From: Polytrichum commune
Taxonomy: Eukaryota; Streptophyta; Polytrichopsida; Polytrichales; Polytrichaceae
Direction: 5' to 3'
Assembly (NCBI GenBank): GCA_950295325.1
Contig: OX485806.1
Coordinates: 21,762,001-21,826,000 of the forward strand
Length of the DNA: 64,000 nt
Translations under genes and position numbers: made by a program
Part shown: positions 6,080 to 30,356 of the stretch, piece after piece
Layout of the letters: each line of letters starts with the position of its first letter
Position numbering within the stretch: position 1 is the first letter of the stretch
The notes under the pieces: model-generated
Seen by the model: only the letters and a program-made list of their open reading frames with translations
Told to the model about the DNA's origin: nothing
The model's database searches: none

Positions 6080-7064
6080 CCGACCCACTATTTTTTTTGG
6101 CGGCTAAGCCCTTTTTTTTGGCGGCCTCCATGGCTCTAAAAATCTCAGGCCCACGACTGTATCCTTGTGTGTTGCCTGGACAGGAATATGTGTCGTTCTT
6201 GCATGTTTCAGGACGCGCTCCCGAATTGTAAGAGGTGGTATTATAAGTAGAATGCGAGGGTGTTTGCGAAAGGGAACGTCTTGCGCTTCTCCGGAGGGCC
6301 AGACAACGATCGGACTCGGAAGATGCGGCCTTGAGGGCGTGCCTATCCAAGGAGGACGTGGAGGAGGGCCGGGCACCAAGCGAGCGGGTAACCACCTGCG
6401 AAACAACGTCATAGGAAGATAAGAATAGGAATGGAGTGGGGAAAATAATGAGGGCGGTTTGGGATGGGCGCTCGTAAAGAGAACGGCACGCAAACGGAAG
6501 ACAAGGGAAGCAAAAGCGGGAAAGGGGTTTAGGGTTGAGGAGGGCACCTTGGCTTTGGGGGTGTCCATGCGGGGAACGGTGGGAACAAGGGGGGCGTCGA
6601 CGGGAGCATCCGGAGCCGATGGAACTATTGTATTGGTGAGTGGTGGGGGGGAGTCGAGGCGTGGGGGGCTCACGATGGCGGAGGACGTTGCGGGGGGAGG
6701 AACGGAGTCGGCGGGGGAGGTGTGGCAACGGGGGCCTTCCATGTGGAGACGCCGGCTCGGCCCGCGACGAGCGACGGCGTCGTCCTTAGAGGGCGAGAGG
6801 TGCCCCAAACGAACGAGCGTCCGTTTCTCCTTGGAGAGGGGGGAGGGCGACGGGGCGTAGGCGCGGGCGACAAGTGCGGGGGGCGGGCTGTTGACGACGC
6901 CGTCGTCGATGCCGATGTCGCGGGAGTAATCCACGGCCGAGGCCGCGTCCACCGCCGAGAATTGGTAGAGGGATGGCATTTGGAAGTCCGTGACGTCGCG
7001 GGAAGGGGAAGCAGGGGGCGAGAGGGGACGAGAAGGGCCGTCGACCACAGGGGCGTCGCATATG
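6080..7064 (-). CDS. Hypothetical proline/serine-rich protein, partial
   Basis: A long minus-strand open frame lies in a GC-rich block. Its product is rich in proline, serine and alanine, with many SPP and PSP blocks, and looks intrinsically disordered. An upstream in-frame stop is directly followed by a plausible splice acceptor (T-rich run, then CCCATAG) near 7065, so this may be an internal or last exon rather than a complete gene. The last third (below about 6490) has a different composition and may be untranslated. It lies 120 bp downstream of the FCP1-like exon on the same strand and could be a 3' exon of that locus or a separate gene. Overlapping open frames on the other strand are as long, so the coding call is weak. 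No domain was recognised. Confidence 0.3.
6807..6826. repeat. Degenerate copy of the ACGAACG palindrome
   Basis: Twenty bases fold back on themselves around the core ACGAACG-AG-CGTCCGT, with one mismatch. It is the outermost member of the palindrome family that is dense between 8 and 30 kb. A single degenerate copy in GC-rich DNA could also be chance. Confidence 0.4.
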
Positions 7065-7183
7065 GGGGCAGACTATGGGCAAGAACAACAACAACAACAA
7101 TCACAACAACAAAAGACATCCAAAAACGAAGCAAGCATTAGTAAATGTGAACCACATGATACAAGCAAAGACATGGAGGCATT

Positions 7184-7951
7184 TCAAATCAATTTATTGA
7201 GTTTGGCGAGCCTCATGATGCTCTTGAATACATTATCGCGGGGGCTTAGCGCCGCATTGCCGAAGGGGTTGGACCTAACAAAAAATGGTATGCTACCGGC
7301 GTGGAGCACGAGCCTTCTAAGGTAGGGGGCTAGCCTATCGACCAAAAATGTGTCTTGCCTATCGCCGGTCCAAGTGTCCGGGAAGATGACGTTGCCCGGG
7401 GGGTTCAAGACGCTCTTGGTGGGGCTGTCGTCGATGAGGACGGTGTTCTCTGGAGTCGGCCACCACCCGTGCGGCGTCCCTTGCAGACGGGGGACGCCTC
7501 GCCAGAGTCTCGAGCGGAGGACCTTGAGGAACTGTTGTCCTCCGCCCCGACCGCCAAACTTGGGCACCGGTTGACCTTTCTCGTCGAGCAGCTCGTCGCA
7601 GTCCTCTTGGCCGAGGACGAGGCAAGGGCTCGGGAGATCGCGGAACAAGAAGTGCACGATGGGCTCGGTGTTCTCCATGACCATGGAGCTCCACACAATG
7701 ACGTGAGCGAACTCGACCACCTCGCGAAGGAAGTCACGCAAGCCGGGACGGGCGCGGACAGCCTTGCGGTTAATGAGGGTGTCGAGCTCACCGTCGTAGT
7801 CCCTTTCGTCGGGGTGACGAAAGGGATGCGTGGGGATCCTTGGGATGTGTTGGGTGTGACACAACACCCCGTTGAGGTCAAAAACGATGAAAGGTTTGTT
7901 CCGGGTGGGAGGTCCACTGGTCGAGGGGTTGCGACCAATCTCCGGGGGGTC
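7184..7951 (-). CDS. FCP1-homology (HAD-type) phosphatase-like protein, 3' exon
   Basis: The frame reads KPFIVFDLNGVLC, then IVWSSMVMENTEPI, then VLIDDSPTKSVLNP, in the order of the FCP1/SCP (NLI-interacting-factor) fold: nucleophile loop, motif II and the acidic motif III. Family members remove phosphate from phosphoserine, classically on the RNA polymerase II tail. Here the second acidic residue of the usual DxD loop is asparagine (DLNG), as in the plant DLNGLL subgroup, so catalysis may be weakened or lost. The exon opens after a likely acceptor (TTCATCACAG) at about 7952 without an in-frame ATG, so at least one upstream exon is missing from my model. It ends with LAKLNKLI and a stop at 7184. 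Codons are GC-rich compared with the flanks. The first exon was not found; degenerate palindromes lie just upstream at 8.08-8.24 kb. Confidence 0.65.
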   Translation of the reverse strand, partial: DPPEIGRNPSTSGPPTRNKPFIVFDLNGVLCHTQHIPRIPTHPFRHPDERDYDGELDTLINRKAVRARPGLRDFLREVVEFAHVIVWSSMVMENTEPIVHFLFRDLPSPCLVLGQEDCDELLDEKGQPVPKFGGRGGGQQFLKVLRSRLWRGVPRLQGTPHGWWPTPENTVLIDDSPTKSVLNPPGNVIFPDTWTGDRQDTFLVDRLAPYLRRLVLHAGSIPFFVRSNPFGNAALSPRDNVFKSIMRLAKLNKLI

Positions 7952-8083
7952 CTGTGATGAACAACTCGACTAGTTTAATTCTATGATCCAATAATGAAAT
8001 TTTGCGTAGAAAATGAAGACGGTGCATTATGGGGAAAGACGAGGAAGTGAAGAGAGTGCAAGGAAAATGTGCTCAAGGGCACA

Positions 8084-8239
8084 TTTGCGAACGAGCGTTC
8101 GTGAATGAAGGCTGCGGGGGCGGTGCGCATCATTTACGAGCGCTCGTTCGTGAGCGCGGCTACACGTACATTTACGAGCGGTCGTTCGCGAATGAGGTGG
8201 ACAGTGGGTCGCAGCCTTTCACGAACGAGCGTTCGCGAA
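8084..8239. repeat. Cluster of four degenerate palindromes
   Basis: Four imperfect copies of the palindrome begin at about 8084, 8133, 8171 and 8217, with arms such as TTTACGAGCG or TTTGCGAACG and centres AG, CT, GT and AG. Spacing is 38-49 bp. The flank from about 8180 to 8330 is similar to 29.93-30.06 kb, so it belongs to the 3' flank of the DGQH gene, cut away from it by the Ty3 insertion. Confidence 0.7.
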
Positions 8240-8338: not shown

Positions 8339-10185
8339 TGTGAGCCCAAAAGGGTGCCCACATTTAGTCTTAGACCCTTGAAACGTTAGTTGATGCACTT
8401 TGAAGTAGCATGTTACTTCACAAAAATATAAAAAGAGTGAAATGTTAGTCTTAGAAGTACCATGTTGTAAGAGGCTAGGATGTGAGTTGTTATTGTGTTT
8501 TTACCTTCGGAAGGATTTGAGTGAATGAGGATAGGTAAGGAGAACTTGGATTGAGTAGTTAGTGAGTAGGCTAGTACAAATGGATGGAGACAACCAAAGT
8601 GACTCAAGAGGCAAGTGCATTCGAATTGGGATGAATGGAGGATCACATGGAGCGCACAAGTGGACCACCTCATCATGGCCACTTAATGGGGAAGGCCCAA
8701 GGAAGAATGCAAGGTGGAGGATAAGCAAATTCTCAAAGCACCAATCAAATCACGAGTTAAGCATCGTGGTTTGAATTAAGTGGTGAGCGACGATTTGGGA
8801 AAGTAAGGGGAGAAAGTTATGGCGGCGGAAAGCGAAGGAGGCTAAGTTTGGGTTGAAGCATCCCAAGTTTGGTAAAGTGTGGTAGGTAGAAAGCCAAGGC
8901 TAGTTAAATGTTCGAATTAGGATCCTTGTTGATCATTTGAAGGAGGAAGGCTTAGAAGATAGGATTGGCGCCTACTAAGTAGGAGGAAATCTCAAGGGCT
9001 TATCGTGAGCCTTGAGGGTGCTCACCCCCTCAAGCTTACTATATAATCCCTCATTCTTCCCTCACTCATCCTCTCTTTCCTTTGTGCTCCAAGGCACCCC
9101 ACGAGTTATAAGTGTGGGTGTGGGAAGCCATATTGGAGCACATGTGTGTGCTTAGTTTTTAGTTTGAGAGCCAAGGCTTGTTAGCCTTGAAGAGGGCTTG
9201 ACCTCTTGGTAGAATTAGTGTTGACGTGAAGGATTTTAAAGTTAATTCATGATTCCAATTTGTGGTACTTAAAGTTCATGTTTTGAATACACGTGGTTGC
9301 AAGTTCCATGTTTAAGAGTTGAGCACTTGATGTTGTGATGAGTGCAAAAATATACTTGTGTGGATTAGTTAGTCTTAGTGAAGTTAGGAAATTATCTCTC
9401 CCCCTCTCCTCTCTAGGATTTTAGGATTTTAGGATTAGAGAAGAATTGTGTGATTAGAATGGGGTTGTTAGTAGAATTAGGGAAATTAGGTAGGAAGATT
9501 AGTTAAGGGCTTGAATAATTAGTGAGGTAGTTGGGGATTACAACTACAAAGTTGTGGGTTCATGAAGGAGCTGGGTTTATGAAGGAGCTGGGTTTGTTTA
9601 GTTAGAAAGTAAAGAGCTGGGTTTATGAAGGACCTGGGTTTGTTTAGTTAGAAGCTAAGAAGCTGGGTTTATGAAGGAGCTGGGTTTATGAAGGAGCTAG
9701 GTTTATGTAATTAGAAAGTAAAGAGATGGGTTCATGAAAGAGCTTAGTAGATAGCCTACCTAATTAGCTCATAGACAAGTAGTTAGTTACATTATGCTAG
9801 TTAGTGTTATGTGTGGCTTTCACAAGTAAATGTATTTGAGATTGACTATAGAGAATAGTGTTTTTTTTTAACACTTGCATCCTCTCTTTAAAAAATAAAC
9901 CACGTGCACAACTTAATGGAGAATGTGGAGCACTCTCGCGATGGCAAGACAAAGGAAGCAAAGACCAAAGGTGCGAGGGAGAGATTGACATAAGTCACAT
10001 AAGTATTTCTTAATACTTAAAGGCTTATGTACGGTATGGAGACACCAATTAAAACCAAGACCACTTGAAGGGTGAACCTTGCACTATGGACTCATCCAAG
10101 TCCAAATCCAATACCGCGGAGGAATGTGAGCCCAAACCCACTACTCGGACTACGGACGCTTAAGGGTGGGGGGTTTGGCCTCACA
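8339..10185 (+). repeat. 5' LTR of the Ty3/gypsy element
   Basis: 1847 bp, TG...CA ends, with a TATA-like CTATATAATCC near 9040. Near 9550-9740 it contains about seven copies of a short AGCTGGGTTTATGAAGG-type repeat. The same arrangement recurs 9056 bp downstream without any length change. Confidence 0.95.
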
Positions 10186-11094
10186 TAATTGGTGCGTCTG
10201 CCGGGAGCGAAGCGGAAGGTAGTTACAAGACTTGGAGGCGACTAGGAGACTTGGAGGCAACTAGGAAAAATTGGAGACACAAACTTGAGAGAAGGGAAGG
10301 AGCACCCGAAACTTGGTAAGTATTCTCTCTTTGGGTTACATTTGAATTCATTGTATTTCAACTATTCCTTGGAATGAATTGCATTGTCAATTACGCAAAT
10401 TCATTTTTGAGGAAGGAGCGCGGCGAAGGTACGTCCTCAACCTTTTTGTGGATTTGCTAAGAATTTAAAAGGAACCTATAACCGAGTAGCTCATTAAAAC
10501 ATTAGAGGGTAAATTCACCTTAGGACATTGAACTTTGACACTCACCTCGGGGTGAGTCTCAAAGTTTTGGGAGTTGTCATTTCATGCTCTAGATTAAATT
10601 AATATTTCACAAAGTTTATGGTGTTGTTACATTGAGTCACGATTGAGGGGAGTGCTAACTCACAGGGGGATGCGATTGCTCAAGGTATGTTTATTTCTTC
10701 AAAGTGAACTCATTAACTAATTAAGGAATGCCTTTTGTACTCGTGATTGTTGTTATCCGTTGTAGAGGGTAATTCCCGAATTGTGGATGGTGTGAGAAGT
10801 TGAAGGGTGAAGCCTCGACTTTTAACATAATCTACTCGGAAGGTCACCCCCTCACAATCGGTATTGTGGTGAGTGTTAATTTGCGGGAAGGTGCGGAGGT
10901 GATGCTCCGACTTAACCAAAAAATTAACATGAACATGCCTATCCCCTATTGGGATTCTTTCACCTAAGTGGGCTTGCAGGTTCTTTTCCTCACCTCCTAA
11001 AAAAATTATAACCACACCAAGACAAGTGAAAATATTAAGAGGGGAATTGCTAGGATTATGTGTGGTCAAGTGAGGGTCGATCGATTCTTATGGA
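10186..11094 (+). other. Leader of the Ty3/gypsy element with primer-binding site
   Basis: A few bases after the LTR comes TGGTGCGTCTGCCGGGA (about 10190-10206), placed and composed like a tRNA 3'-end primer-binding site; I did not assign the tRNA. The rest is about 890 bp of untranslated leader before the gag start. Confidence 0.7.
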
Positions 11095-14000
11095 ATGCAA
11101 GGTAGGACTCGCTCACAAAAACCAAGTTTGATAGTAGGACTAGAGAAATCTACTCGAAAGAGGCGGTCCTCTAAAATCAGTGATAGATTAGAACAAGATA
11201 ATGTTAGAATAGAGAGTTGTTTGAACGTCGAACCTAGGACTAGGTCAATTCTAGACACCTTAGAACTTGGAGCTCAACTTGAAGAGGAGATCACTCCCTC
11301 CAAATTGAGTGGTGAAACTTCTTCGGAAAATTACACACTTAGAGAAGAATTCCCGGTAGAAGTTGATAGGGGCTTGTTGAATAGTTCACCGGTCACCATA
11401 GCCGAGGAACGGGGGATGGATCCACCACCCATGCCCCCAATTCCGCCCATACCTCCTATACCTCCAATAGACCCATTGGTTAGGCCAAGAGGCCTACCAA
11501 TTGTGGTTCCACAAAATTTAGCGGCGATGGATATGCCATCTCATCTCCCTAAATTTTATGGGACCAAGGATGAGGACCCCTCTCGGCACATGGAACGGTA
11601 TATCGAACGGTTGGCTAGCTTCCTCATAACCGACCCGGGTTATTGGTTAGTGTGGTTTCCTACCACTCTAGAGGGGGAAGCCTATGAATGGTATCGGGAT
11701 CATGCCGAGGGACATTTTAGGGGATGGGAACAATTACAAAGGGAGTTTCTTAACGAATTTAGGCCGGAAGTGGGTCAAAGTACCGCATTAAGGGCATTGT
11801 CGTCATTGAAGCAAGGAAGGGAGGAAGAAATTTCGGCTTACATTAGGAGGTTTGATTTAGTGTGCACTAGATTTGTGGGTACCATGCTCAACGACGACAC
11901 GCTAAAGCAATTTTTCATTCAAGGGTTTTTTAAGTCCGGAACTATTAGGGGTGTTCTAGAAAGGAATCCCTTGACCTTGGCGGATGCCAAGCGTGCGGCT
12001 AGAGATATTGAAAACTTGGATAAAGATCACGAAAGGCTATGGAGAAGGGAGGATGAATTGATCCCACAATTCATCCCCATACGCCCTAGGGTGGTAGCGG
12101 TAGAACCCGCTAAGTATGAGAACCAAATTCCATATGCCATTGTGGACACCGGTCCCCGACCTTTAGCGGTTAGGGAACCGGCACCTCTTTTGGCACTACC
12201 GGCCCCTAGAACGGATCCACACTTGGAGGAGGTTGAGAGAAGACTAGGTGCTAGCCAACTAGGATTCCAAGAGGCTATGATAAAACAAATGCAAAGCCTC
12301 ACGGATCAAATGTCATTAATGATCCGGAGTCAACAACCGGGGCCTCCACCCCCGGTTGAGTCGGGTAGGCATTCTTCCGGATTATGGTGTGTCCAATGTG
12401 GCCAACCGGGCCACACGCGTCAATTTTGTAGAAGTGGACAAAACCGTGACCAAAGAGGAAACGGTAACCCACCTCAACAAAATCAACGAGGTCAAGCGCC
12501 ACCTCACTATGGAAATGGAAGCAATAGAGGACCACAACCTAGAGGGCAAGGTGGCCAAAATTTAGAGAAGAAGGAATTTCATCCCTTTTGTGGAAGGTGG
12601 CACGCTCAAGGACAATGTTGGTCCGAAGGTCAAGAGTTTAATTGTAGCAATTGTGGAGGAAGTCATCCCTCGGATACGTGTCGCCAACCGGACAAAATAA
12701 TTAATGTCCCTTACCCGGTGGCTAATCCACAACAACAAGCAAGGGATAATATGCGAGGTGCTAGGCCACAAGGAGTACCGGCCAATGAACTTAGGCCACC
12801 TAACTTATACTATGACCATAGTAATGCTAGGCAAACTTTTCATCCACCAGTGGGCTTGCAAACTACAACCGGTTACATTCCAATACAAAATAGACAAGGA
12901 GTTCCACCTAATGGTAGTAACGGGAGACAAGCGCCTCCAACGGATCCGGGACCATCTAACTCCCAAGATGTTAGGTTCATGGATGGAGTGTTGGAGGCCA
13001 CATGTGATGACATGCTTCCTCTCCCAACGAGAATTGGAGAGGAGCAAAGTCAATGGCCTCCTCACACCAATGCTATTACATATGAGTTAGTGAAGGGTAA
13101 GGGTGTGGTTGAAGAAGCACCTGCACTAGCGGTAACTACTAGGGCTAGGAGAGGGGATGCCCCGTTGGAGGTAGGAATAGGAGAGCAAGGAAATTACTCT
13201 TCGGATGAAGAGATTAATCTCTCCGAGTTGGATAGGGTAGCTAGAAGAGCTACTAAGGATGTGGAGAGGGAAAATATAATTTTACAAGATAGGGAGAGGA
13301 CTAATGCGGTACATGACTTGGATAATAGCGATGTGGGTGAATGGGAAGGACCGGGGGTTCCCGTAGACGAATTCGACGTAGTGGGTAATTCTAAGGTGGA
13401 AAGATCTACCGGGTACGACTTGTGGGCGGACCTTAGTACACTCAAGGCGGATATTACTTTCGGCCAACTATTGGAAATTTCACCCACGGCAAGGAAAACA
13501 TTAAAGGAGGGAATGCCGGTACACAAGAGGATGAGGAAGGTGAAAGCTAAAATAGCCGCTAGGATCCAATCACAAGGTGGAAGAGACGTGAAAGCTATAG
13601 AAATAGAAGTTGTTATAGTAGATAAGGTGGTTCCTAATGTGCTAGTCGACGGAGGGAGTAGTCTAAATATACTACCGGAGGATACTATGAAAAAATTGGG
13701 ACTTGGACTCACGGGGCCTTCACCTTTGGTCATAAATATGGCAAATCAAAGTTCGACTACGCCTTTGGGGATGATCAAGGATTGTAGAATGACTACGGGA
13801 GGTGAGGAGTACTTGGTCACCTTCCATGTCATTAAAATGCACTCCAACAAGGACACCTTCCCCATTTTGCTAGGTAGGCCTTGGTTGCGGATGGCGAATG
13901 CTATGGTCAATTGGGGTGGACCTAAACCATCCATCACTTATGGTCCGGAGGGTAATAGGGTCATAGTGTCCATTGGTTCATTAGAAGGATGGATGAAGAA

Positions 14001-17000
14001 GGAGATGTATTTGCCATTGGAGAAGGAAATTGATGACTTAAACGAGAATGAGATTGGCAAGGCATTGGTGGGAGTCGTCCATCCCGAAGGTCAAAGGGTT
14101 GTTATAGATTCGGGCTCGGGAAGTCTAGGTCCTAATTTTTACAATTATGGGGATAATGGGGATTATGCCCAATGGCTAAGGGAGTACCCCGAGTCCGAGG
14201 TTGATGTAATGGTTACATTTCACCAAGTAGGCTTAGGGAGTGAATTTCCTAGTGTTAGTTTAGGAGAGGGCTCATTGTTGGAGCCATGTGAGGTGCTCAC
14301 CGAGGAAGAGTGGGTTAGCGGTGGGTTAACACCTTGGGTAGATGACGTGGAAGAGGGTGAGGTTAGTTTAATTCATGTAGATGGGACTCAAGAGGAGGAT
14401 GTGATTATTGAGTCATCGAAATTGGAGGAGCCTTTACATTTCAAGACCACGTCTACGGGGATAGTTGTAGGTCAAGATGTGAAAGATTACCCCAATGTGC
14501 CTTCCGATTGGTATCGGAACAAAGAGGAACAAGCACATGTGTCGGAAGCGGATTGGCGGTACGTGGATGTGAAATTAAAGAATGGAAAAACCCGACAAAT
14601 GAAGATGGGCTCCAAATTGGGGGAGAAAGAGGTTAGGGAGTATAGCAATTTGGTGGATGAGTTTAGTGATACTTTTGCATGGTCCTACGATGAGCTTAAG
14701 GGAATTCCTAGGGAAATGGTAGAGCACCGGATTCCTTTAATTCCGGGGGCGAGGCCAATTAGACAAAAGGAGAGGAGGATGAATCCTCAATTGCAATTGT
14801 TGGTGAAAGCGGAATTGGAAAGGTTATTGAAGGCCGGGTTTATCAAGCCGGTGGAAATCACGGATTGGGTTTCTCCTATGGTCTTAGTAAAGAAAAAAAT
14901 GGGAAATTAAGGGTTTGTGTCGACTATAGGAAATTGAATTCGTGCACACAAAAGGATCACTTCTCCTTACCTTTTATCACCTTGTTGCTTGAGGAGGTTG
15001 GAGGTCATTCGCGATATACCTTTATGGATGGGTATGCGAGTTATAATCAAATTTCCATAGCCCTCCAAGATATCCATAAAACGGCTTTTACTACACCTTG
15101 GGGTACTTTTGTGTGGGTAGTGATGCCATTTGGGTTATGTAATGCCCCGGCTACTTTCCAACGATTAGTAATGTATATCTTCACCGACTTGTTGTTCAAA
15201 TCCATGACCGTCTTTGTGGACGATTTTAGCACACAAAGTAATGTGGATGATCACCTACATTGTGTTAGGGAGGCATTGGTTAGGTGTAGGAAGATGAGGT
15301 TAGCATTGAACCCGGATAAGACATTTTTGGGAGTGAATAAGGGAGTGTTGTTGGGTTATGTTGTTAGTGAGAAAGGTAGAGAACCCGATCCGGATAAGAT
15401 TGCGGCCATAAGCGACTTGGCAACTCCAACCAATTCCAAGGGGATCTCTAAGTTGTTAGGACATGTGGGATGGTACCGGGAACTTATTCCTAATTTTTCA
15501 AAGATAGCGGTGCCCATTACCCATTTGCTCAAAAAGGATGTCAAATTCGAGTGGACGGATGCTTGTCAAAAAGCCTTTGAGGAATTGCGGGATAGGTTGA
15601 GCACCTATCCGGTGTTGATACCACCCAATTGGGGTAAACCTTTTCACGTCTATTGTGATGCTAGTAATGTGGCAATAGGGAGTGCGCTTTGTCAAGCAAC
15701 GGGAGAAAAAGAGAAGGATCAACCTATAGCTTATGCGAGTAAGCAATTGACCCCCGCCGAAAGAAACTACTCTACAACGGAGAGGGAGTGCCTAGCCATG
15801 GTGTTTTCCGTTAAAAAGTTTAGACATTACCTCATGTGCAACCCGGTTGTATTTTTTGTTGACCACATGGCTATCAAGTATCTAATTAACAAGGCGGAGT
15901 TAAGTGGTAGGTTAGCTAGGTGGGTTTTGTTATTAGAAGAATTCGACTACACGGTGGAATATAAACCGGGTCGTATGCATTTACAAGCGGACCACTTGTC
16001 TAGGTTGTCGGAGGAGATAGGAAAAAATCCGGTAAATGATATGTTAGTAGATGATAGCCTCTTTGTGGTCACTTCTACACCGGAGTGGTATGCGGGCATA
16101 GTGGAATTTCTAACAACCCACAAGTTGCCCAAAGAGTGGACAAAAGAAGAGAGAAGGAAGGTGAGGGTAAATAGTAGGCAATTTGTTGTAGTGGGCCATA
16201 GGTTGTTTAGAAGGGGGTCCGATGGTATTTTACGACGATGCGTGTCAAAAACGGAGGTTGAAGCGATTTTAATCGCTTGCCACGATAGCGCTTGCGGCGG
16301 TCACTTCTCGGGTCAACTCACCGGGCAAAAAATACTTAGAGCGGGCTACTTTTGGCCTACACTATTTAAGGACGCCCATGACTATGTAAGGAAATGCGAC
16401 GCTTGCCAACGGTATGCCCGAAACGACCTTAGAATGGAGATGCCTTTACATGTATCATTACCCTTAATTCCTTTCGAAAAATGGGGCATCGACTATGTGG
16501 GTGAGGTCCATCCCCAATCTTCAAAAGGAATGAAATATATTGTGGTGGCAACCGAGTACCTCACCAAGTGGGCGGAAGCCAAAGCGGTGAAGACCGACAC
16601 GGCGGAACACGCGGCAACATTTATGTACGAAAACATAATTTCGCGGTTCGGGGTGCCGAAGATCCTAGTAAGCGATAGGGGTACTCACTTTTTGAATGAC
16701 TTGATTCGAGAGATGACAGAGAAATTTAAAATTGATCACCGGAAGACTACTCCCTACCACCCACAAACCAATGGACAAACGGAAAGGGTTAACGGAATTT
16801 TGGTGAGTATACTACGCAAGACGGTTATAGACTCGAAGCGGGATTGGGATACGAAACTAACGGCGGCACTTTGGGCATACCGTACAACCTATAAGGTAAC
16901 TACGCGTGCTACACCATTTTCCTTAGTCTATGGTCTTGAAGCGACACTACCAATCGAATATGAAGTCGAGTCACTTAGGGTGGCCGTGAGTACGAGACTT

Positions 17001-17333
17001 ACCGAAAGTCAATCCTTACGAAATCGACTAACCGATTTGGAAGCACTTGACGAAGGGAGGAGAATGGCGGCTCAACATATTGAGGCAATCCAAAGAAGGA
17101 GAAAGATTACTTTCGACAAACGACATAAGAGAAGGGCCCTAACACCGGGAATGATGGTCATGATTCAAGACGCACGAAAGCTTGAATTTCCGGCGAAATT
17201 CAATGCGGTATGGTTAGGACCTTACCTTGTCTATGAGGTCTTTCCTAATAATTCAATTCAATTGAAAACGTTGAATGGTGAGCTCTTTCCTACCCGTACA
17301 TCGGGAAGTAGATGTAAGGAGTACCGAGCTTGA
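11095..17333 (+). mobile_element. gag-pol coding region of the Ty3/gypsy element
   Basis: In order: a gag domain (about 11.5-12.1 kb), a CCHC zinc knuckle (about 12.4 kb), an aspartic protease (about 13.6-13.9 kb, DGGSS active site), reverse transcriptase (about 14.7-15.3 kb, FVDD active site), RNase H (about 15.6-16.0 kb), and an integrase with an HHCC zinc finger (about 16.3 kb) and a catalytic core (about 16.5-16.9 kb). The region is about 6.2 kb and nearly intact, with about one break. Treated as a fossil; no details of the break are given. Confidence 0.9.
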
Positions 17334-17394
17334 CTAGGCAACTTACCCTTGGAGCAAGAGATGTTTGGATTCATCCCCCGATGGTCGCCAATTA

Positions 17395-19241: not shown

Positions 19242-19429
19242 ATAACATAGGCTCATATATTAATCCGTTGAATATTTACATTTCTCACGTGATAGTCTAT
19301 CACATTTTCCTAAGGCAAAATGATGCCGTGTCCTACAAAACTGTTCGGCCCTAAGGGGGACCGTTGAAGAGGGCTCTCGCAAGGCCACTGGATGTCGATG
19401 AAGAGAAAAACATCGCGATGTTAGAGAGG

Positions 19430-19449
19430 TTACGAACGCGCGTTCGTAA
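19430..19449. repeat. Palindrome copy just past the last DGQH coding exon
   Basis: A perfect 20-base palindrome with the arm TTACGAACG and centre CG. On the minus strand it begins 28 bases after a possible splice donor (GAG|GTAACT, donor at 19477). This resembles the position of the copies near the 5' splice sites of the two upstream introns, so an unrecognised third intron may start here. Confidence 0.85.
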
Positions 19450-19539
19450 AAAAATGGTATTCTCAGAGGAGAGTTACCTCGTCATCGGGGGGAGGGGCAG
19501 CGGCGCTGGACCGAGCAGCAGGTCCCTCCTCAACGATTA

Positions 19540-19555
19540 ACGAACGCGCGTTCGT
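19540..19555. repeat. Palindrome copy inside DGQH exon C (C-terminal side)
   Basis: The 16-base core with centre CG is read in frame on the minus strand and contributes the peptide TNARSL. The paralogous remnant at 30.34 kb lacks the palindrome at the matching place (it continues TTAACGAGTG), so this copy was gained here or lost there. Confidence 0.8.
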
Positions 19556-19915
19556 AACCTCCACAGCTGCAGCCGCCTCTGTCTCCATGGCCTCTGCCTC
19601 ACGCTCCGGTTGAGACGCCTGTGTCGCTTGGATGCGCAGCGCGTCTTCTTCCTCGGCGCCCAGGTCGAGCGCGTCCATCCTGACATCCTCCATCCACGCC
19701 GCATGGGTTTCTTCCACGTCCATCCCATGCACCCCTGGTGCGTCATTGGGGCTCCCCTGCGTGTCCTCCACAATGACCATGTTAGTGTGTCGCGCAGAGT
19801 CATCGCCATGTCTGTCTACTACCCTGGGGACGACGGTGAAAGACGACGCATCGGTGTATGAGGGCAGTCCTACCCTTGAAGGGGGAGGGGTGAGGACTGG
19901 AGGACCTGAAGATTC

Positions 19916-19931
19916 ACGAACGTGCGTTCGT
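19916..19931. repeat. Palindrome copy inside DGQH exon C (middle)
   Basis: The core with centre TG is translated in frame as LRTHVRE on the minus strand, between an acidic stretch and a proline-rich stretch. The open reading frame is not disturbed. Confidence 0.8.
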
Positions 19932-20911
19932 AAATCCTCGTCCTCCTGGATGGCCGCCGCCACAGCATCGTGGGAGGTGGTCGAGGGAACCTCTGGTGGC
20001 GGAGGAGTGCCAACAGGCGTAGGGTGGGGCGCCTGCTGGCGGGAAGGCCCTCCGGTAAACATGCCCGGTGGAGGGGATTGGGAGGGGTATCCTCCAGGGA
20101 AGGGGTAGGCCGGCTGGGGGGGCGCCGAGAAGCTTTGCATACGCTGGAGCATGGCGAGGATGGCGTCCGTCTTCTCGTTCGACTGCCTCAGCTCCTCCTG
20201 AATTGCGAACATTTTCTTGGCATTCTCCTCTGCCGCCTTCGCCATGTCCTTCTTCATCTTTTGCTTGAGCTTGGCGTTAAGCTCGGCGACGGACAATGCC
20301 TCCTCTTTGACCCTCTTGTTTTTGTCAAAGTCTACCCCCAGCTCGACCATGATCTCCATGTCGCCCTCGTCCTCATCGGAGACCTCGATGATTGCCCCCG
20401 GAGGCAGCTCCACGTAGGGGGTCTTCTTCATCCTCCGCCTCGTGTTGCGGTACTGGTCCAACGTCGGTCGGGACCGTTGGTCCAGAAGGTCGAGGTTCTC
20501 CATCTTGGGAACCACAATCGGCCTGGGCGACACGGATGTCGAGCATCCCCCGGGAGTGCCGAATGCCTCCGCTCCAGACGTTCTCGAGGGGAGGACATCT
20601 TGGGTTGTCCCCGCCGACGACCCCGTGTATCCACCCGGAGTCCCTTGCACATCGGATGGATTTCCCGACGGCGCCAAAATGCGGAGAGGAGTGACGTCCA
20701 AGGATCGGAGGATCGCCTCGACGTTGTAGGAGGGCGCAGGCTCGTCGTCGTCCGTCTCCATGGCGGGCATGCCTTCGTCGACGGGCATGTTGATGTCCGT
20801 CCTCGGGAGGGACATGTCCTCCAGGTCCATCGTGGAGGCCTTTGCCCTGTGCACGTGGAAGTCCTCCTCGTCGATGGCTTCAATGAAGTTGTTGACGACC
20901 AGCCCCAACAT

Positions 20912-21052
20912 CTGAGATTCAAGCAAATACGTTAGAATATACGAACGTGCGTTCGTAAACATCAACGACGAGAAACAATGTCATCAAAACCCAAGACAAG
21001 TTGAGGTGAACTTTACGAACGAGCGTTCGTAAATATTAGTTGGAGAGCTTAC
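20912..21052 (-). other. Intron 2 of the DGQH gene with a palindrome at each end
   Basis: A 141-bp intron from GTAAGC (21052) to CTCAG (20912). One exact palindrome (21012-21033, centre AG) begins 20 bases inside the 5' splice site. A second (core 20941-20956, centre TG) lies about 30 bases before the 3' splice site, next to a CTAAC branch-point-like sequence. The two copies can pair with each other as well as with themselves. Confidence 0.8.
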
Positions 21053-21629
21053 CATCGTAGCGTACATGAACTTGCTGCCGCCACAAACGTTGCACACGGT
21101 CTCTCCGCTTATTGCCACGCTCTGCAAAACAGAGACGTAGAACTCCAACCTGAGTTCCATCGCCGGGAAGACAGTGTACAAGGTCTCCTGCAGCAAATCC
21201 TTGGGAGGGGGATGGGGGATGCTGTAGATCTTCTTGAACGTAGTGTTTGCCTTGACAGGGGCTCGCCCATTCCGAAGCGCGTTGTACGTCAACACTACTA
21301 GAAAAACATGACCAAATCAACAAAAAATCAACAGATCTTTGTCGATCCGGGCACTGCAATGACCGATTTCACTGATTTTTGAATTTTTGTAAAAATCAAC
21401 AGTTTACTGCTTACATTTTTGTTGATTAGAATAGTACAATGACCAAATCAATAAAATTTTAGTAAATGTGAAATCTTTTTTGAATCTTTTTTGGAATATT
21501 CTAGGATCTATTGGAATATTGTAAAATCTTTTTAATTTTTTGCAATTTATGGACTTGTAAGTGTATGGGTATGGAAATAATTACGAATTCAAAGGTGTTT
21601 AAATATTATAAATATTATATTAGTTGATT

Positions 21630-22170
21630 GTTAATTTTATATATATATATATATAAATATTAATATGTATAATATGTATATAATATATGTATGTATGTAT
21701 ATATGTATGTATATGTATGTATATATGTATATATATAATATATGTAACATATATGTATACAATATATGTAACATGTATGTATATAATATATAAATATATA
21801 AATATGTATACATTTACAGTAAATATATACAGTATATATTTATTGTAATTATATACAGTATATATTTACTGTAATTATATACAGTATATATTTACTGTAA
21901 TTATATACTGTATATATACTGTAATTATATACTGTAATTATTTACAGTAATTATATACTGTATATATTTACTGTAATTATTTACTGTAATGATTTACTGT
22001 AATTATATACGGTATATATTTACTGTAATTATTTACTGTAATTATATACTGTATATATATACTGTAATTATATACTGTATATATATTTACTGTAATTATA
22101 TACTGTATATATTTACTGTAATTATATACTGTAATTATATACTGTATATATTTACTGTAAATATATACAT
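21630..22170. repeat. AT-rich tandem tract inside the CACTA element
   Basis: First a TATATGTA-type microsatellite (21630-21800), then about 20 imperfect copies of a unit like TATACTGTAATTATA up to 22170. Replication slippage is the simplest origin. Confidence 0.9.
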
Positions 22171-22239
22171 CAAGTAGGTAGTAAAGAGAAATTAGTGGCC
22201 TTATTCTAGAAAGGTTTAAAACACTCCATTTATATCATG

Positions 22240-22445
22240 TGTGATGTGATGACCTAGTGGTTAAGGCACATGTGTGGGTATCACTAGGTGCAAGGTTTGA
22301 TTCCTGTGGCCGGCACCTCCGGCCTTGGCCTTGCCACCTATGTGAGTGGTAGTTAGTCTATACTTGTAGGTGATGTATATGTTGAGGGTTACTTGGGAGG
22401 GGTTAGGAATTGCAGATGTGGCATTTATTCATTTTTTATTTTTTA
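22240..22445 (+). repeat. tRNA-derived SINE nested in the CACTA element
   Basis: CTAGTGGTTAAGGCAC at about 22253-22268 matches a polymerase III A-box, and GGTTTGATTCC at about 22292-22302 matches a B-box at tRNA-like spacing. About 130 bp of non-tRNA body and a T-rich tail follow. It is not a tRNA gene, because there is no acceptor stem. SINE insertion into the CACTA element is the best reading. Confidence 0.6.
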
Positions 22446-23703
22446 ATGTTATATATATATATATAATAAGGTTTTTTTTAAAAATATTTTTGTGACCATA
22501 TCAACAGAAAAAATCAACAAAATTGTGTTACATCATGTCCAGGTCAACGCGTCCTAAGTAACAACCGCGACCAACGCCTTTCTGTTGATCCGGACGCAAA
22601 ATTTTCTACTAGTGCAAGAAGACGAGGCTGACCGCCCCCACCTGTTTGTTTCCCCTGGCCTCGTTGATGGCCACGATCCCTTCCGTCTTGGCGGGCACGT
22701 AAGTGCTGTGGAAGATGTTGTACTCGAATTTGATCATCTTCTCGTACAGGTCGACTACAGCAGAGAGCTTTTCCTGCTCCACTATCCACAGCCAAACGTG
22801 AGGCTCCCTCATGTCCGGAGACTTGTGCTCCTTGAACTTGGCCATGAAGGGGTCGTAGAAAGGTATGTCTTTCCCCCCCTGCCTCGACGCGCCGGGGATC
22901 CCCCTGAAATCGATCAGGGCAAATGGGCACCCCCGTCGATCCTCCCTCACCTCGGCCCTGCTCATGGTCCGGTCCCACTTGGAAAATGTCACCCTCTCCA
23001 CTCCGGTTGTCACCAGACAAAATCTGGCCACTCCTTCGAATGTGGCCAACCTCTTCCGCGCCAAAAAGCTTTTGTATTGCTCCACCTCCTGGGGATCCGT
23101 CTCGGTTTTCTTTGTCCTCTTGTTCCCCTTCTGCTTCAAAATGGAGGCGTGCTCCTTGACAAGACAACGCATTGAGGGTCTGGAGATGTTGTAGTTGACC
23201 TTGAACATCTTCCAGCTGGCCCAATTAAGGTCCCCGTCGGCTAGGATGAGTGCGTACTCTGGTATTAGGGCGCTCAACTCCCTCATTGCAGCAGTCTTCA
23301 GCTTGCGGTGTTCGCACCATTCCTTGATGAAATACGTGCCGGGCTTGTGTCTTGGCCTCTTCAAAAATATCTTCGGGTATGGGATGGTTCTTCCCACAGT
23401 GTTCCCAAGAAGATGCACCGCGCACCTCTGCAACTCGGACTCTGTTAATCCTTGAAGGGACCTGAAGAACTCCCTCAGTAGTGGAGGGACCTCCCCGGTC
23501 TTCTCCGCGCTGTACTTCTCCTCGGTGTCGGGGTTGACCAGATCGCCCGAGCTGTGCGCATCAAAAAATTGTGTCCACAACTCCCAAATATCCCTGTTGC
23601 AACAGATGAGGCGGAGCTCACCCTTGAGCTCCAGGACAAACTTGGTTGTTGTAGACTTCATGTCGATGGAGGAGAACTTGTCCACCATCGCGTCGCAGAA
23701 TGC

Positions 23704-23824
23704 CTGCAGCAAGAAAGACATCAGTAACGCACAAAATACGAACGCACGTTCGCAAGTTTGAATGTCAAAGAACTTGAAATTTTGAATGTCAAAGATATTT
23801 ACGAACGTTCGTTCGTAAACTCAC
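23704..23824 (-). other. Intron 1 of the DGQH gene with a palindrome at each end
   Basis: A 121-bp intron from GTGAGT (23824) to GCTGCAG (23704). An exact palindrome (23798-23819, centre TT) starts only five bases after the exon. A second, with one changed base (core 23738-23753), ends about 35 bases before the 3' splice site. The middle is a direct duplication of CTTTGACATTCAAA. The layout is the same as in intron 2. Confidence 0.8.
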
Positions 23825-25148
23825 CTTCCATTGTGGAGACGGCGTCTTCGCGTTCTCCCTTTCTTTAGGGGGGCACCCGTGGGCGACGTAGACGTCCCTT
23901 GCAACCACTATGTTGGCTGCCCACGACGCCTCGAAGGCCTTGATCTTGTTGCCGGAGTTGAGGAAGGTGGATATCTTCCGCAGCTTGTCCCAATCGTCCG
24001 ACCACACCAAGAACGCCTTCCAGTAGCGCAAGTCCTCCTTCAGCTCATGCTGGAAGTTGTCGTCCTTGAGAATTATCTGGGACGCCTCCAAGCTGTGTTG
24101 GCCGTCTATGATCCAGAACTCTCCATTCTGGATCCGTGGCCAGTCCTTCTCCGTCGGACGGAATGTCAGCCCTTTCGGCATGACGCAGACAGTCAGCATG
24201 TCCCACTTGACGTTGTTCATTAGATTATTTATCTGCCACTTCACACCACCGCTTTCGCGAGAGCGAACCACCCATTTGTTGGGGGACATCTCGCACTTGA
24301 AGCAGTCCACGTTGAATGTGAAGTGGCGTCCCATGGGCCAGCAATCCTTCGAGTAGTTGTTGAAGTCTCGAAGGATCCTCGTGGCCTCCACATCGTTAGG
24401 GTTCTCACCCTTTTTTAAGGGGGTGGGCATTACGACATGCGAGGTCACCTCTGCGGTCTCCGTTACTCCCGATTTCTCCATCTCCTCCCTTGTCCTCTTC
24501 GATGGCGTGGAGTGTTTACTGGGGCCCTCCGTCGCCCTGCTAGCGGAAGGCACAGGCCTGGGTGCACTTCTAGATCCTCCTGCCCCTGATGTGGATGGTT
24601 TCCTGGGGCTCTTCTTCTTCTTGTTTGCCTCAGTGACCACACTGTTGTATTTGGAGATGTTCAATGCAAGGGCGGTCAATTTCCTTGCCGTCCAGTATGG
24701 GCTCAACGCATATTTGGAGAAGAGGCCGTCCAGGTCGAAGTGCTTGGCATCTTCCGCTACGTTATTGGTGGCGTATTGGTAGGAGAAGGTATTTTTCTGA
24801 AAATGCAGCAAGAGGTTGATATGATCCTTCTTGTTCTTCATGTCCAGAATTACATACTCCCCCTGGGCCTCTATGGACTCTATCTCCCACGTCTTCATTT
24901 GAACCCACTGTTCGGGCTGGTCCGGTCTTGTCTCCAGCTCGTAGGTGAAGCGCATGCAGAAGAGGCCGTCCCCGATCTTCTCTGGCAGTGCCGTCTACTC
25001 CCCCATGAAGTCTTCCTTGGGGACATAGTTGTCGTTGCCGTTATCGTCTAACACCGACTCTGGGAGGCCATCGACCTTCACCGCGAACATCTCAATGGCG
25101 CTTCTGCTTGATCTTGCCATCTGCAACAGAATATAAACAATTAGTGAC

Positions 25149-25779
25149 TTTACGAACGAACGTTCGTAAGTGACATGCATATCCCACAGACTACGCAGTG
25201 TTAATGCGTCTTTGCAATTGATGTAATTATATTTACGAACGTTCGTTCGTAAATGAGGGGTTGCAAGATCATATAAATTTTTAGTATTGAGTTTACGAAC
25301 GAGCGTTCGTAAAAGATATGAGATCAAAGAGACTACTCGTCATGAATGTGTTTGTAATATATTTGGTTATTTTTACGAACGATCGTTCGTAAAAGATATA
25401 GGTTTTATAGATTTGGATTCATTTACGAACGTGCGTTCGTAAGTATGTCCATTTGGTCTATCTTTTCGGACATTTGGTTGATTTATCTTTCGTAAGTACA
25501 TGTGATTTGTCTTATTGGTGTTCGCAAAATTATATTTGTTCTTTAGATATTCATAGAGGTTCATATTAAAGTTAAGGTTCCTTCTGAGTGATATTTTGAG
25601 TATATTTACGAACGTGCGTTCGTAAATATAGATCATTTCAAAGAACGTGGAGTGCGTATTTACGAACGCACGTTCGTAAATGGAGGTTTGGTATGCAGTG
25701 TATGTCCATTTACGAACGAGCATTCGTAAATGGAGGTGGGTATGCAGTGTATGTCCATTTACGAACGAGCGTTCGTAAA
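25149..25779. repeat. Array of nine palindromes upstream of the DGQH start
   Basis: Copies begin at 25149, 25232, 25292, 25372, 25422, 25605, 25659, 25709 and 25758. Six are exact 22-mers, two differ in the outermost base and one has one change in the right arm. Centres are AA, TT, AG, AT, TG, TG, CA, AG and AG. Sequences between them are mostly unrelated; only the last two intervals are duplicates. The array lies 29-660 bp upstream of the ATG at 25120, in a leader intron or the promoter region. Confidence 0.93.
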
Positions 25780-26059: not shown

Positions 26060-26900
26060 TTGGAAAGGATAACAAATTACATTGAAATGCTGCACACTTC
26101 AAACCCTGCTTCTTCTCTTTCTGAAAATCCCAGAAATCCTCACAACTGCACACTCAATTGCCTTTCAAATGCACACTCAGATAACTCTCTAATGCAGACC
26201 TCAAGCCTTCACAGCTTATATACAAACCCTAGTATACTCCTATGTACACAAAACTCACAACCTTGTAGCTCTCAAGCTTCTGAACTCTTAAGCAAACCCT
26301 TAACTCTCAAGCTTCCCTAAACTCTCAAGCTTCACTTCTGAAGCTTCCCTAAACTCTCAAGCTTCACATCTGAAGCTTCCCTAAACTCTCAAGCTTCAAC
26401 TCTCAAGCTTCCTTAAACTCTCAAGCTTCTAAAGATCACCCTCAAACTCTCAATCCGAAACTCTGAAGCTTTCCTACTCAAGCTCTCAAGCTTTTGAAAC
26501 TCACAAACTCTCACACTGAAAGCTTTCACAAACTCACAAGCTTTCACAATGAAAGCTTTCACAATGAAAGCTTTCACAAACTCAAAAGCTTTCACACAAG
26601 CTCTCAATCTGAAATCTCTCAAAACTTGCAACAAAACTAATTTAAAACTTCAAGACTAAAAAAAGCAAGAGCTTCGCTCTCTAAGCGCTCCGCTCCTCCT
26701 CTCCTCGAAATGACAAATGAGGAGAAGAGGAAGGGGCGCGGGGAGGTAGGTGCGCCGCTAGGGTTTCCCAGCACCTGCCACGTGGCACAACTCCACTGGC
26801 TAGGGCTGGGAGGGAGATGGGATGGGATGGTATGGGAGGTGATGGGAAGGGATGGGATGGGATGGGATGCGATGGGAGATGGGAGATGGTTGTATATTGG
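26060..26900. repeat. AAGCTT-rich and GGGAT-rich low-complexity tracts
   Basis: From about 26270 to 26640 the sequence is a degenerate tandem of ACTCTCAAGCTTC-type units, giving some twenty AAGCTT or near-AAGCTT hexamers. Between 26815 and 26890 comes a GGGAT/GGGAGAT tract. No conserved protein is encoded. The part before (25.9-26.27 kb) shows nothing recognisable. Confidence 0.8.
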
Positions 26901-28830
26901 AACCCTTCATGTTATTCTCATGCTTTGACATATTTATATGTAATGGACGCGTTTAGGGCATTAACTTGAAAAGCTTAGTTCAAATACATGAATTTTACTC
27001 GTTTTATTTCCTTAGTACCTCTACATTTGGATTCCTTGTAAACATATTTTAGGAAAATATGCTCAGTTAATTCGTAATAAACAATGCATGTCATTTCCTA
27101 GGTTGTCAATGTAGAATCCACCCCCAAAGATATGTATATGGTGTTTTAAAATATAGTTTATGTAAGAGCTAGATATCTTTCAATTAATTCGATGGTTCCT
27201 CAAATAAATATTACATGCAAAAATGAATTCATAATAATATGAGATTGCGCAGAGTTGCTATACGATAGGATGTCAATTCAAGTTCCAATATTAGGTGTTA
27301 GCTTGAACTAATGCATTTCTGGAGTGGTCAACTATTTTGCTAGCATCAATTACGAGCTTGCGATGAATGAAGTTAGTGCAATTACAAGGGTTTTTGAGGA
27401 GTCAATATTGTTTGTGTGTGTAATGTATCCTAGTAACAATCTAAAACCTAAACCCAAATACCACATACACAACTTTCACAAACCCTAAACCCCTAAACCC
27501 TACCCCCAAACCCAAACCCTAAACCCTAACCGCAAACCCTAAACCCTACATCCTTGCATCTTTTTATCTTACCAACATTTCTTATATGTGGCCATGTTGT
27601 TTTATGAGGGCAGATCAAATTGGTCTACCAATGTTGGTTGGATGGAGAATGCTTAATTCCGTTCATAACAACTATAATAATTGATAATGATGCCAATTGT
27701 CATTTTCACATTCCAAATTAATAGATTTGAGATAAAACTTTGGTTTAGGTGATAAGTGAAATTTCAAATATTCCCACTTTCACCTCAATAATTCTGAGTG
27801 AAATTTCATCACACAATCCACGATCTTATTATAATAACATGCATGTCTTAAGACTTCAATTTATATCAACACTTTAAGCTATGATGATGCACATCCTTCT
27901 CATAGGATGCAAAACATATATTAATTGTAAGTACATATTATTGTATGCACCATTCCAAATTAATAGTGCATTTCCCCAAACCCTAAAAGTCTATTTCCAA
28001 TAAGACCTCAACTCATTTAATCATGTGTCAACTTAAACTAACAATCAAACAATGCATTCAACTATAAATATCACCAATGATCTAATAAACATTTAACCAA
28101 TGTGTATCCGTACCCTTACAACAAGTGGACGAAAATTCAATTTCCAATAGGACGTCAAACACATAATAATTATAACTATGATTCAACGTTACGGTAGCTA
28201 GTATGGTTTCAAGTCTCAATGATCATTACGCTATCATACTATGCAGCATTACAAATTGATTAATCCTTCCTACTCATGCCATTTTAATTCCTTATTTTCA
28301 CACCTAGATACCATTTGAAAGAAGACCTAACTTACATATATTATTAGGTATAATTAGTTCATAGTGCCATCAATCTACCCTAGTGCAAGCCATTATGGAT
28401 TAACCCGATTTTTTAGTTGTATTCATGCACTTGGTGACCATATTACGGTCATTTTTTGATGTGAAACATATGATACCTATAATTTTAGGGGCGTCCGCAA
28501 CATGTTTCTTAGCCACTCTGACCTCATTGTGTGTGTGTGTGTGTATGTGTATATATATGTATATATATATATCTATGACTTCGACATTCATAACTTTATT
28601 AGGCATCAATTGTCAATTAACTTGGACTTCATACCTTAGTCGCAAATCATTAAATATTCAATGTTAATCATCTCCATATTTAGACATTATGTGTATATAT
28701 TTGTATATACATATATTTCGATGAGACCTTGGTCACAACTAAGGTGTGCAACCGATTTATATATTTTCAATATGTTGGCGTGCATGCAAGGCATGTTCCA
28801 TACATGACAGTGCTATTTATATAATTCCGC
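26901..28830. other. AT-rich intergenic DNA
   Basis: No gene recognised. It contains the telomere-like tract listed separately and a TG/TA microsatellite at about 28525-28572. Confidence 0.5.
27480..27549. repeat. Interstitial telomere-like (AAACCCT)n tract
   Basis: About nine imperfect copies of AAACCCT, the plant telomere heptamer, with variants such as AAACCCC and ACCCCCA. The sequence on both sides is ordinary single-copy-like DNA, so this is an internal tract and not a chromosome end. Confidence 0.85.
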
Positions 28831-29091
28831 ATGGATGGAATGGGAGATTGTTAGGTCAAAGAAGGCGGCGGGAATCCGCTTTTTAAAGAGCATCCAAGGG
28901 ATTTTGAACCAGCGGGGTGAAGTACTTAAAGCTCTTCCCCCCACAACAAAGCTCTTTTCAACGGCACATGCAAGTGTGCACTCTACAGACCTCACCGAAC
29001 GCGCTCAAGCCATTTCGTGTGCGCCAACCATACACCACCCAGGTACAGTACAGGCTGTACCTACCGCATATACCGCCGTAAATACCGGAAC

Positions 29092-29978
29092 TTTACGAAC
29101 GCACGTTCGTAAAGATGAAGAGCTTCAGGTTTAGACAAACGATTCGGACTTGGACATGACAAGGATTTACGAACGCGCGTTCGTAAATTCCACATGAGAG
29201 CATGTTCTGGATTGAGCTACTCATATGGATAGTCACATGCACGTAATCCATCTCAGTTATTTACGAACGTGCGTTCGTAAATCCCACCTGAGAGCATGTT
29301 TTGGATTGAGCTACTCATGGATAGTCACATGCACATAATCCATGGCAATTATTTACGAACGTGCGTTCGTAAATATGCCTTCGAGGATCATACATACATA
29401 TTTGACCCGTATCTATTGGTACCTGATGGTCGGTAATTTTACGAACGTGCGTTCGTAAATCCCACAGGAGATCATGTTTTGGATTGAGCTACTCATGGAT
29501 AGTCACATGCACATAATCCATGGCAATTATTTACGAACGTGCGTTCGTAAATATGCCTTCGAGGTTCATACATACATATTTGACCCTTGTCTATTGGTAC
29601 TTGATGGTCGGTAATTTACGAACGTGCGTTTGTAAATCCCACATGAGAGCATGTTCTGGATTGAGGTACTCATATGGTTAGTCACATGCACTTAATCCAT
29701 GATAGTCATTTATGAACGTGCGTTCGTAAATATGCCTTCGAGGATCATACATACTTATTTGACCCGTATCTATTGGTACATGATGGTCGGGAATTTACGA
29801 ACGTTCGTTCGTAAATACATGTCATTATTGTCTACGCATCCAGCAACACATCTTCATTCATGCACATCAGTATGGCAGTAATTTACGAACACAGAATAGC
29901 AAGAAAAATATGCTCATCGCTCGTCCGTGAAGGATGTGAACACGGGGTCGCACCCATTTACGAACGTCCGTTCGTAAA
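29092..29978. repeat. Near-periodic palindrome array with alternating spacers
   Basis: Palindromes begin at 29092, 29166, 29260, 29352, 29438, 29530, 29615, 29709, 29794 and 29957, with a half copy at 29882. The main steps are 85-94 bp. Eight are exact; two have one changed base. Between 29188 and 29793 the intervals are of two kinds. Type A is about 72 bp and contains TTGGATTGAGCTACTCAT. Type B is about 64 bp and contains TATGCCTTCGAGG. The order is A A B A B A B, so the array grew by duplication of an A+B unit of about 178 bp. The last copy is extended by flanking CCCA/TGGG into a 30-base palindrome. Most centres are TG. Confidence 0.95.
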
Positions 29979-30356
29979 TGGGTAGGTACGCAAAAGTCAA
30001 CATAATCAAATTCACAATATGGAGGTGCTTAGTGTTCAAAATATTGTTGGAGTTGATTCAGGCATCATCTGCAGATTTGCTAATTTTGTGCGTATGGACA
30101 AGTGTTCTCTTGTGATAGTATATCGCGCAGGTTCCTAAGTCAACATGGTACTTTGACCTACAAAACCGATATTCCTCAGGGTGCTCTCATTTGAGGGATC
30201 TCGAAGGCCGCCGGATGTACATGGAGAAGTTACTGAGGTCACGAACGCGCGTTCGTAAATGCATGTGGCGTTCTCGGATTTCTGATTTCGTCGTCGGTTG
30301 TATGGGGACAGGCGCTGGTCCGAACAGCAGGGCCCTCCTGGACGATTAACGAGTGT
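29930..30356 (-). pseudogene. 3' remnant of a second DGQH gene (paralogue)
   Basis: Positions 30130-30356 are similar to 19.32-19.56 kb, which is the end of DGQH exon C and its 3' flank. Positions 29.93-30.06 kb are similar to 8.18-8.33 kb, the sequence on the other side of the Ty3 element. In the remnant these parts are continuous. The coding end can be followed (SLIVxEGPAxRxSA), but the GT of the possible donor is changed. One palindrome core is kept at 30241-30256. The rest of this gene copy is absent beyond about 30360. Confidence 0.7.

Follow-up and report, generated by a model that had tools for sequence, protein, structure and literature searches.

What keeps a short palindrome inside one interval of a moss genome? 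In a 64,000-nucleotide stretch of Polytrichum commune DNA (C4:21762001-21826000, contig OX485806.1; the whole stretch is called the window here), copies of TTTACGAACG-NN-CGTTCGTAAA, a 22-bp sequence of two inverted arms around two free bases, are crowded in and beside a gene with a DGQH stretch (the DGQH gene). A sequence-only reading of the window had regarded the interval as the locus of a gene family. Searches of the genome (408 Mb, 64 contigs) indicate otherwise: the interval is one DNA transposon insertion, not a host gene-family locus, and the palindrome, which is a part of this transposon, is to judge from its geometry likely to be a protein-binding site.

At up to four mismatches, 31 copies of the palindrome were found in the window, 16 of them exact, and a fifth mismatch added none, in good agreement with the roughly 32 copies, 16 of them exact, counted before. 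At up to three mismatches the window contains 30 matches, compared with 0.00 expected from 100 shuffles. The copies extend from 8084 to 30259. The earlier right end of about 30.3 kb thus holds, whereas the earlier left end at 6807 was found to be a weak half-match only (ACGAACG at 6809), with no copy at up to five mismatches. All 31 palindromes lie within the transposon's own segments. At up to four mismatches, none was detected in the three insertions that interrupt the transposon (Ty3/gypsy, 10,903 bp; CACTA-like, 1,322 bp; copia, 5,625 bp) or in the sequence on either side of it (5,681 bp on the left and 25,039 bp on the right), confirming that the Ty3 element and the rest of the window are free of the motif. 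The motif stops at these borders because they are the ends of the transposon and of the later insertions, as follows.

5683 to 38959, no strand assigned: DNA transposon with the palindromes, including three later insertions (blastn against copy A, and ends)
8339 to 19241, plus strand: later Ty3/gypsy insertion, target duplication ATAAC, no palindromes
21293 to 22614, no strand assigned: later CACTA-like insertion, target duplication CAA, no palindromes
30800 to 36424, plus strand: later copia insertion, target duplication GGTTT, no palindromes

The inverted ends of the transposon in the window are AACACTATATTCG...CGAATATAGTGTT, and a 4-bp target duplication, ATGA, is present at 5679-5682 and 38960-38963. 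The terminal inverted repeats are imperfect and about 29 bp long, starting AACACTATATTCG. Comparison by blastn with a second copy, copy A (C4:4662001-4682000), gave collinear blocks from 5683 to 38959. Copy A has an empty site for each of the three later insertions, which account for the motif-free gaps. The Ty3 insertion is recent, since its terminal repeats are 99.95% identical across 1,851 bp. Genome-wide, the end pattern was matched 271 times in the forward and 291 times in the reverse direction, and the 96 ends listed on contig C1 include 16 inward pairs less than 25 kb apart, 12 of which span 15.5-16.5 kb. In all 12 copies inspected (the window, copy A and ten more), the AA before CACTA and the TT after TAGTG belong to the ends. 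A perfect 4-bp target duplication was observed in 10 of these 12, that is, in the window and nine of the ten additional pairs, the C1:5765318 pair and copy A being the exceptions.

The transposon is present in many copies. For the stretch at 24.9-26.2 kb, 40 long matches were scored out of 255 candidates, the window itself at 100% and the 39 others at 94-98%. The DGQH reading frame gave 106 scored matches out of 1,052 candidates, with identities of 85-97% apart from the self-match. Regulation of a host gene family was rejected as an explanation, because many copies of the DGQH gene sit between transposon ends. The proposed tie between motif and DGQH genes stands, but these genes belong to the transposon and not to a host family.

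The claim that the motif is restricted to a single locus and is not a dispersed repeat was overturned by the genome-wide counts. The exact palindrome described above (A-type) occurs 2,909 times, and a second symmetric type with both arms altered, TTTACGGACG-NN-CGTCCGTAAA (G-type), occurs 1,147 times; the locus in the window is a single insertion. When spacers of 0-30 bp were allowed, 2,912 A-type matches were obtained, three above the 2,909 with a spacer of two. Freeing the seventh base of the arms gave 4,102 matches, consisting of 2,909 A:T pairs, 1,147 G:C pairs and 46 for all other pairs, and freeing bases seven and eight gave 4,283. The half-site TTTACGAACG has 4,545 forward matches, compared with 818 for a reversed control. 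The rigid spacer and the paired change of both arms fit a dimeric DNA-binding protein.

Where in the transposon are the palindromes located? Their positions in the window are as follows.

25149 to 25779, no strand assigned: array 1, nine palindromes that immediately precede the DGQH start codon, in a presumed 5' intron or promoter (TTGCAG/ATG)
29092 to 30259, no strand assigned: array 2, ten palindromes at 29092-29978 and one at 30238, between divergent genes and upstream of the transposase-like gene
23735 to 23819, no strand assigned: two palindromes in presumed DGQH intron 1, one starting 5 nt into the donor (AAG/GTGAG, then TTTACG)
20938 to 21033, no strand assigned: two palindromes in presumed DGQH intron 2
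19429 to 19450, no strand assigned: palindrome in presumed DGQH intron 3
19537 to 19934, no strand assigned: two palindromes (19537 and 19913) in the proline-rich exon 3, the only ones in modelled exons

Four weaker palindromes (two to three mismatches) at 8084-8239 belong to the same presumed intron 3 and were separated off by the Ty3 insertion. In total, 29 of the 31 palindromes lie outside modelled exons, and presumed introns 1-3 hold two, two and five. The spacer between both arrays also contains degenerate AAGCTT-rich tandem repeats at 26270-26600 and a run of telomere-type CCCTAAA-like repeats at 27480-27550.

The transposon carries two divergent genes, the DGQH gene and a gene that contains, in copy A, a DUF7869 region (PF25273, 4e-40) and is probably, from this domain match, a transposase gene. 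The splicing of the DGQH gene, including the joining of exon 4 to exons 1-3, was modelled from sequence alone. In copy A this gene has four presumed exons with phase-0 introns, giving one reading of 1,607 aa with a C-terminal NIF/FCP1-like phosphatase domain. The corresponding parts in the window are listed below.

23825 to 25120, minus strand: DGQH exon 1, 432 aa in copy A, with a stop at residue 42 in the window copy
21054 to 23703, minus strand: DGQH exon 2, broken by the CACTA-like insertion, no family above cut-off
19478 to 20911, minus strand: DGQH exon 3, proline-rich, Pfam matches only below cut-off (HAUS-augmin3, 4e-4)
7184 to 7951, minus strand: presumed DGQH exon 4, NIF/FCP1-like phosphatase domain (Pfam NIF, 1.9e-13 in the window and 2.9e-16 in copy A)
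36425 to 38570, plus strand: 3' part of the transposase-like gene, in which the DUF7869 frame of copy A begins at about 37718

The window copy is defective: its exon 1 contains a stop, the insertions interrupt it, and it lacks about 790 bp of copy A's DUF7869 region. The two genes recur together elsewhere. Among 39 DGQH matches on C1 and C4, 31 were found to have a phosphatase match 4.0-4.8 kb downstream on the same strand, 22 to have a DUF7869 match 8.0-10.3 kb upstream on the opposite strand, and 18 to have both, among the matches listed (the best 149 of 1,268 candidates for the phosphatase and the best 80 of 1,905 for DUF7869); the window copy, stretched by its insertions, was scored as a miss for both partners. 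The DGQH stretch presumably resembles the DGQ-R box of GmrSD/ParB-like domains. A 166-aa cut of exon 1 gave a weak GmrSD_N match (E 0.047), at 14.2 bits far below the Pfam cut-off of 33.2. Whole exon 1 has no match in Pfam, NCBIfam, PHROGs or PDB sequences, and no relatives of it were found among viral contigs and plasmids. A methyltransferase-like reading of exons 2 and 3 was dropped, having no support from the Pfam, NCBIfam, PHROGs and PDB sequence searches. Palindromic, clustered sites are also known from bacterial ParB-parS. Unlike in ParB and GmrSD, no helix-turn-helix family was found here, and the carrier is a eukaryotic transposon.

At copy A, the two types of palindrome accompany two diverged DGQH starts. 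The G-type array beside this copy consists of eight palindromes, of which five are exact, two differ by one change and one has an A-type left arm, and it precedes the TTGCAG/ATG of a DGQH relative, so that at copy A the A-type and G-type arrays each stand directly before a DGQH start with TTGCAG. Over 58 aa the two starts share 36% identity, and blastn at E<=1e-4 matched no part of the 2.6-kb stretch that holds the G-type array to the adjoining A-type element. The G-type DGQH start has at least 140 matches in the genome (150 of 346 candidates scored). Association was tested on the first listed sites on C1 (86 of 2,909 A-type and 50 of 1,147 G-type) with 1,000 circular shifts. A DGQH match within 10 kb was found for 58 of the 86 A-type and 47 of the 50 G-type sites, a number reached by none of the shifts in either case, and the enrichment near DGQH genes predicted by the sequence-only reading is thus borne out for the matches listed. 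Element ends are near 68 of the 86 A-type sites (0 of 1,000 shifts) and 23 of the 50 G-type sites (1 of 1,000). Seven G-type clusters are listed on C1: five lie at most 760 bp from a DGQH start match, one, at the end of the list, 5.9 kb and one 560 kb, and four of the seven lie no more than 20 kb from an element end. Together, 12 of 13 listed clusters on C1 are at most 10 kb from a DGQH match or at most 20 kb from an element end; the cluster at C1:25983483 (three sites) has neither. An A-type cluster of 26 sites at C1:640k has an element end nearby and no DGQH gene among the scored matches. It represents a third, diverged subfamily, 74-78% identical at the DNA level where alignable, in which the 22-mer is kept inside different array units.

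What does the palindrome do? It was observed to keep a rigid 2-bp spacing, to switch in both arms, to be positioned at gene starts and in presumed introns, and to remain constant as a 22-mer while the transposon's arrays turn over around it. The favoured reading, to which we would give an even chance, is that the palindrome is a transposon operator bound by a symmetric dimer of an element protein, most likely the DGQH product, and that it regulates the element's genes or counteracts their silencing. An element-encoded protein would bind the palindrome as a symmetric dimer on double-stranded DNA, and the arrays would flag the element's two divergent genes at their promoters and introns. Dense occupancy of the arrays would then turn these genes on or shield them from host silencing, the effect being confined to elements with the same specificity type, and the A-type and G-type would be two specificities inside one transposon family. 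That the DGQH product is the binder is a suggestion whose chances we consider about evenly balanced. Anti-silencing is, by analogy, the best of several regulatory roles, and is proposed tentatively. A broader and rather doubtful proposal, again by analogy, is that self-activation by anti-silencing may have evolved independently in this non-Mutator transposon, with a CpG-rich, rigid palindromic operator of at least two mutually exclusive specificities and a reader in which a DGQH (ParB/GmrSD-like) part is fused to an FCP1-like phosphatase.

Several observations weigh against the operator reading. Across 37 distinct young copies, among them the window, conservation of the arms barely exceeds that of the non-coding flanks, with 44 mismatches to the majority in 7,660 positions versus 136 in 18,291, the burst being too recent for these rates to speak for or against constraint; the corresponding values are 0 in 766 for the spacers and 202 in 46,447 for exon 1. 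About 800 half-sites above control lie outside exact palindromes, as follows from 4,545 less 818 and 2,909, some of them being imperfect palindromes. A single symmetric switch was found, and co-evolution thus rests on n = 1. No recognised DNA-binding domain was detected in the DGQH protein by the same four database searches, and an AlphaFold2 single-sequence model of exon 1 was unusable (mean pLDDT 34). A different element protein could be the binder, and the anti-silencing role rests on analogy.

Could the palindrome instead serve transposition? A transposase or accessory protein might bind palindromes to join the ends, as with the subterminal repeats of CACTA elements, and a palindrome that is owned by the transposon and common to its copies would suit this role. 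CACTA subterminal repeats are described as palindrome-forming, bound by TNPA-like proteins and different among subfamilies (PMC2613891). However, the sites in the window are internal, the nearest being 2.4 kb from the left and, with the copia insertion subtracted, 3.1 kb from the right end, whereas the repeats of Tgmt* elements are described as confined to the terminal 159 and 732 bp (PMC2613891). Sites that occupy gene starts and presumed introns also argue against an end-joining role, which appears improbable.

A selfish mini-repeat, spreading passively and without function by tandem duplication, slippage or conversion, is a further explanation of low probability. Local multiplication is real: array 2 consists partly of tandem units of about 178 bp, and tandem units of 49-50 bp also multiply palindromes. 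Moreover, a diverged direct duplicate inside the transposon, at 19200-19560 and 30000-30350, contains one palindrome in each part, the former being antisense to DGQH intron 3 and exon 3 and the latter upstream of the transposase-like gene. The lack of visible added constraint in the young copies is also consistent with passive spread. On the other hand, the same 22-mer geometry is found amid differing intervening sequence in three subfamilies, modelled exons are largely avoided, and a symmetric switch of two arms with few intermediates and a fixed spacer is not what passive spread would give. The CpG content points the same way. The palindromes appear to form local CpG islands, because observed/expected CpG in arrays and introns rises from 0.47-0.89 with the motifs masked to 1.3-2.3 with the motifs (0.58 and 0.65 in the window flanks), which is suggestive only; the motif CpGs occur amid remaining array sequence with a ratio of 0.47-0.82. 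Of the two roles considered in the sequence-only reading, a regulatory, protein-binding site fits best, and local multiplication takes place inside the tandem units.

A role in the transcript, with the palindromes acting as hairpins or intron-looping pairs, is very unlikely. Each of the three presumed introns holds at least two sites, and RNA folding gave z -2.75 for each of two intron RNAs and z -7.08 for a stretch of array 1, but such folding follows from palindromy by construction. A hairpin loop should also allow other spacers, of which only the three matches mentioned above were found, and G-U wobble intermediates would be expected, yet these can be at most part of the 46 mixed and other pairs. 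Array 2 lies between divergent genes, and no Rfam family was found at gathering score in window positions 5000-40000. Finally, a host transcription factor that binds the palindrome and drives the element would account for the same geometry and the promoter position, but is a very improbable explanation, given that an element-encoded binder would more readily explain a specificity switch within one family that parallels the divergence of this family's own gene, and that 12 of the 13 listed C1 clusters go with a DGQH gene or an element end.

Some other features of the window were recorded. Within the CACTA-like insertion, 13-bp AT-rich units (ATATACTGTAATT-like) are arrayed at 21779-22231 and form long inverted repeats. 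The copia insertion contains tandem repeats of about 120 bp at 31230-32050, through which the minus strand stays open and reads as a repeated peptide. In the right flank, a receptor-like reading frame (56693-57157, by eye) and a Malectin-like domain reading frame (60508-61743, Pfam 3.6e-48) are located on the minus strand.

Is a comparable system known? VANDAL elements, which are Mutator-type, and their VANC proteins are the closest parallel by analogy. In Arabidopsis, a short VANDAL motif has been described that is concentrated in one family of transposable elements, dense in introns and upstream of the elements' own genes, and multiplied in tandem, with C-type and T-type motifs differing among subfamilies (PMC5735166, PMC10398659). 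The palindrome arrays are similar in being mainly non-coding, in tandem units and of two types. However, the VANC21 motif is described as a 9-mer in one orientation (PMC5735166, PMC10398659), in contrast to the 22-bp palindrome with a fixed spacer, and the present element has a DUF7869 protein and a 4-bp target duplication. No Mutator transposase family was found among the Pfam matches of the element's reading frames, VANC itself being compared by description only. The element is not a VANDAL, because its transposase-like gene is a different one and its presumed operator is palindromic.

Spm TnpA is another transposon-encoded DNA-binding protein, linked with Spm demethylation (PMC10398659), and TnpA and the CACTA repeats share with the present system a diversifying, repeated, palindrome-forming motif (PMC2613891, PMC10398659). 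Unlike CACTA (En/Spm) elements, whose repeats are subterminal, the present element has internal palindromes and ends in AACACTA with a 4-bp, not a 3-bp, duplication. From its 4-bp duplication and large size, Sola is a candidate superfamily: Sola elements are described as having 4-bp target duplications, as exceeding 15 kb in some cases, as known from the moss Physcomitrella, and as encoding a DDD transposase; the protein found here matches DUF7869, Sola being compared by description only (PMC10741241, PMC3627910, PMC9033089). Literature searches returned no paper on this motif or element, none on DUF7869, and none relevant among the titles listed for ACGAACG with CGTTCGT.

What follows from the palindrome? 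At a minimum, an apparent gene-family motif is corrected to a transposon feature, and the system offers a rigid 22-bp site together with a candidate binder. If the operator reading is true, the two symmetric types in one genome would be a natural test of specificity switching, in which more than 1,000 sites changed both arms with few intermediates. Co-evolving transposon operators of the VANC kind would then have arisen more than once, from unrelated proteins.

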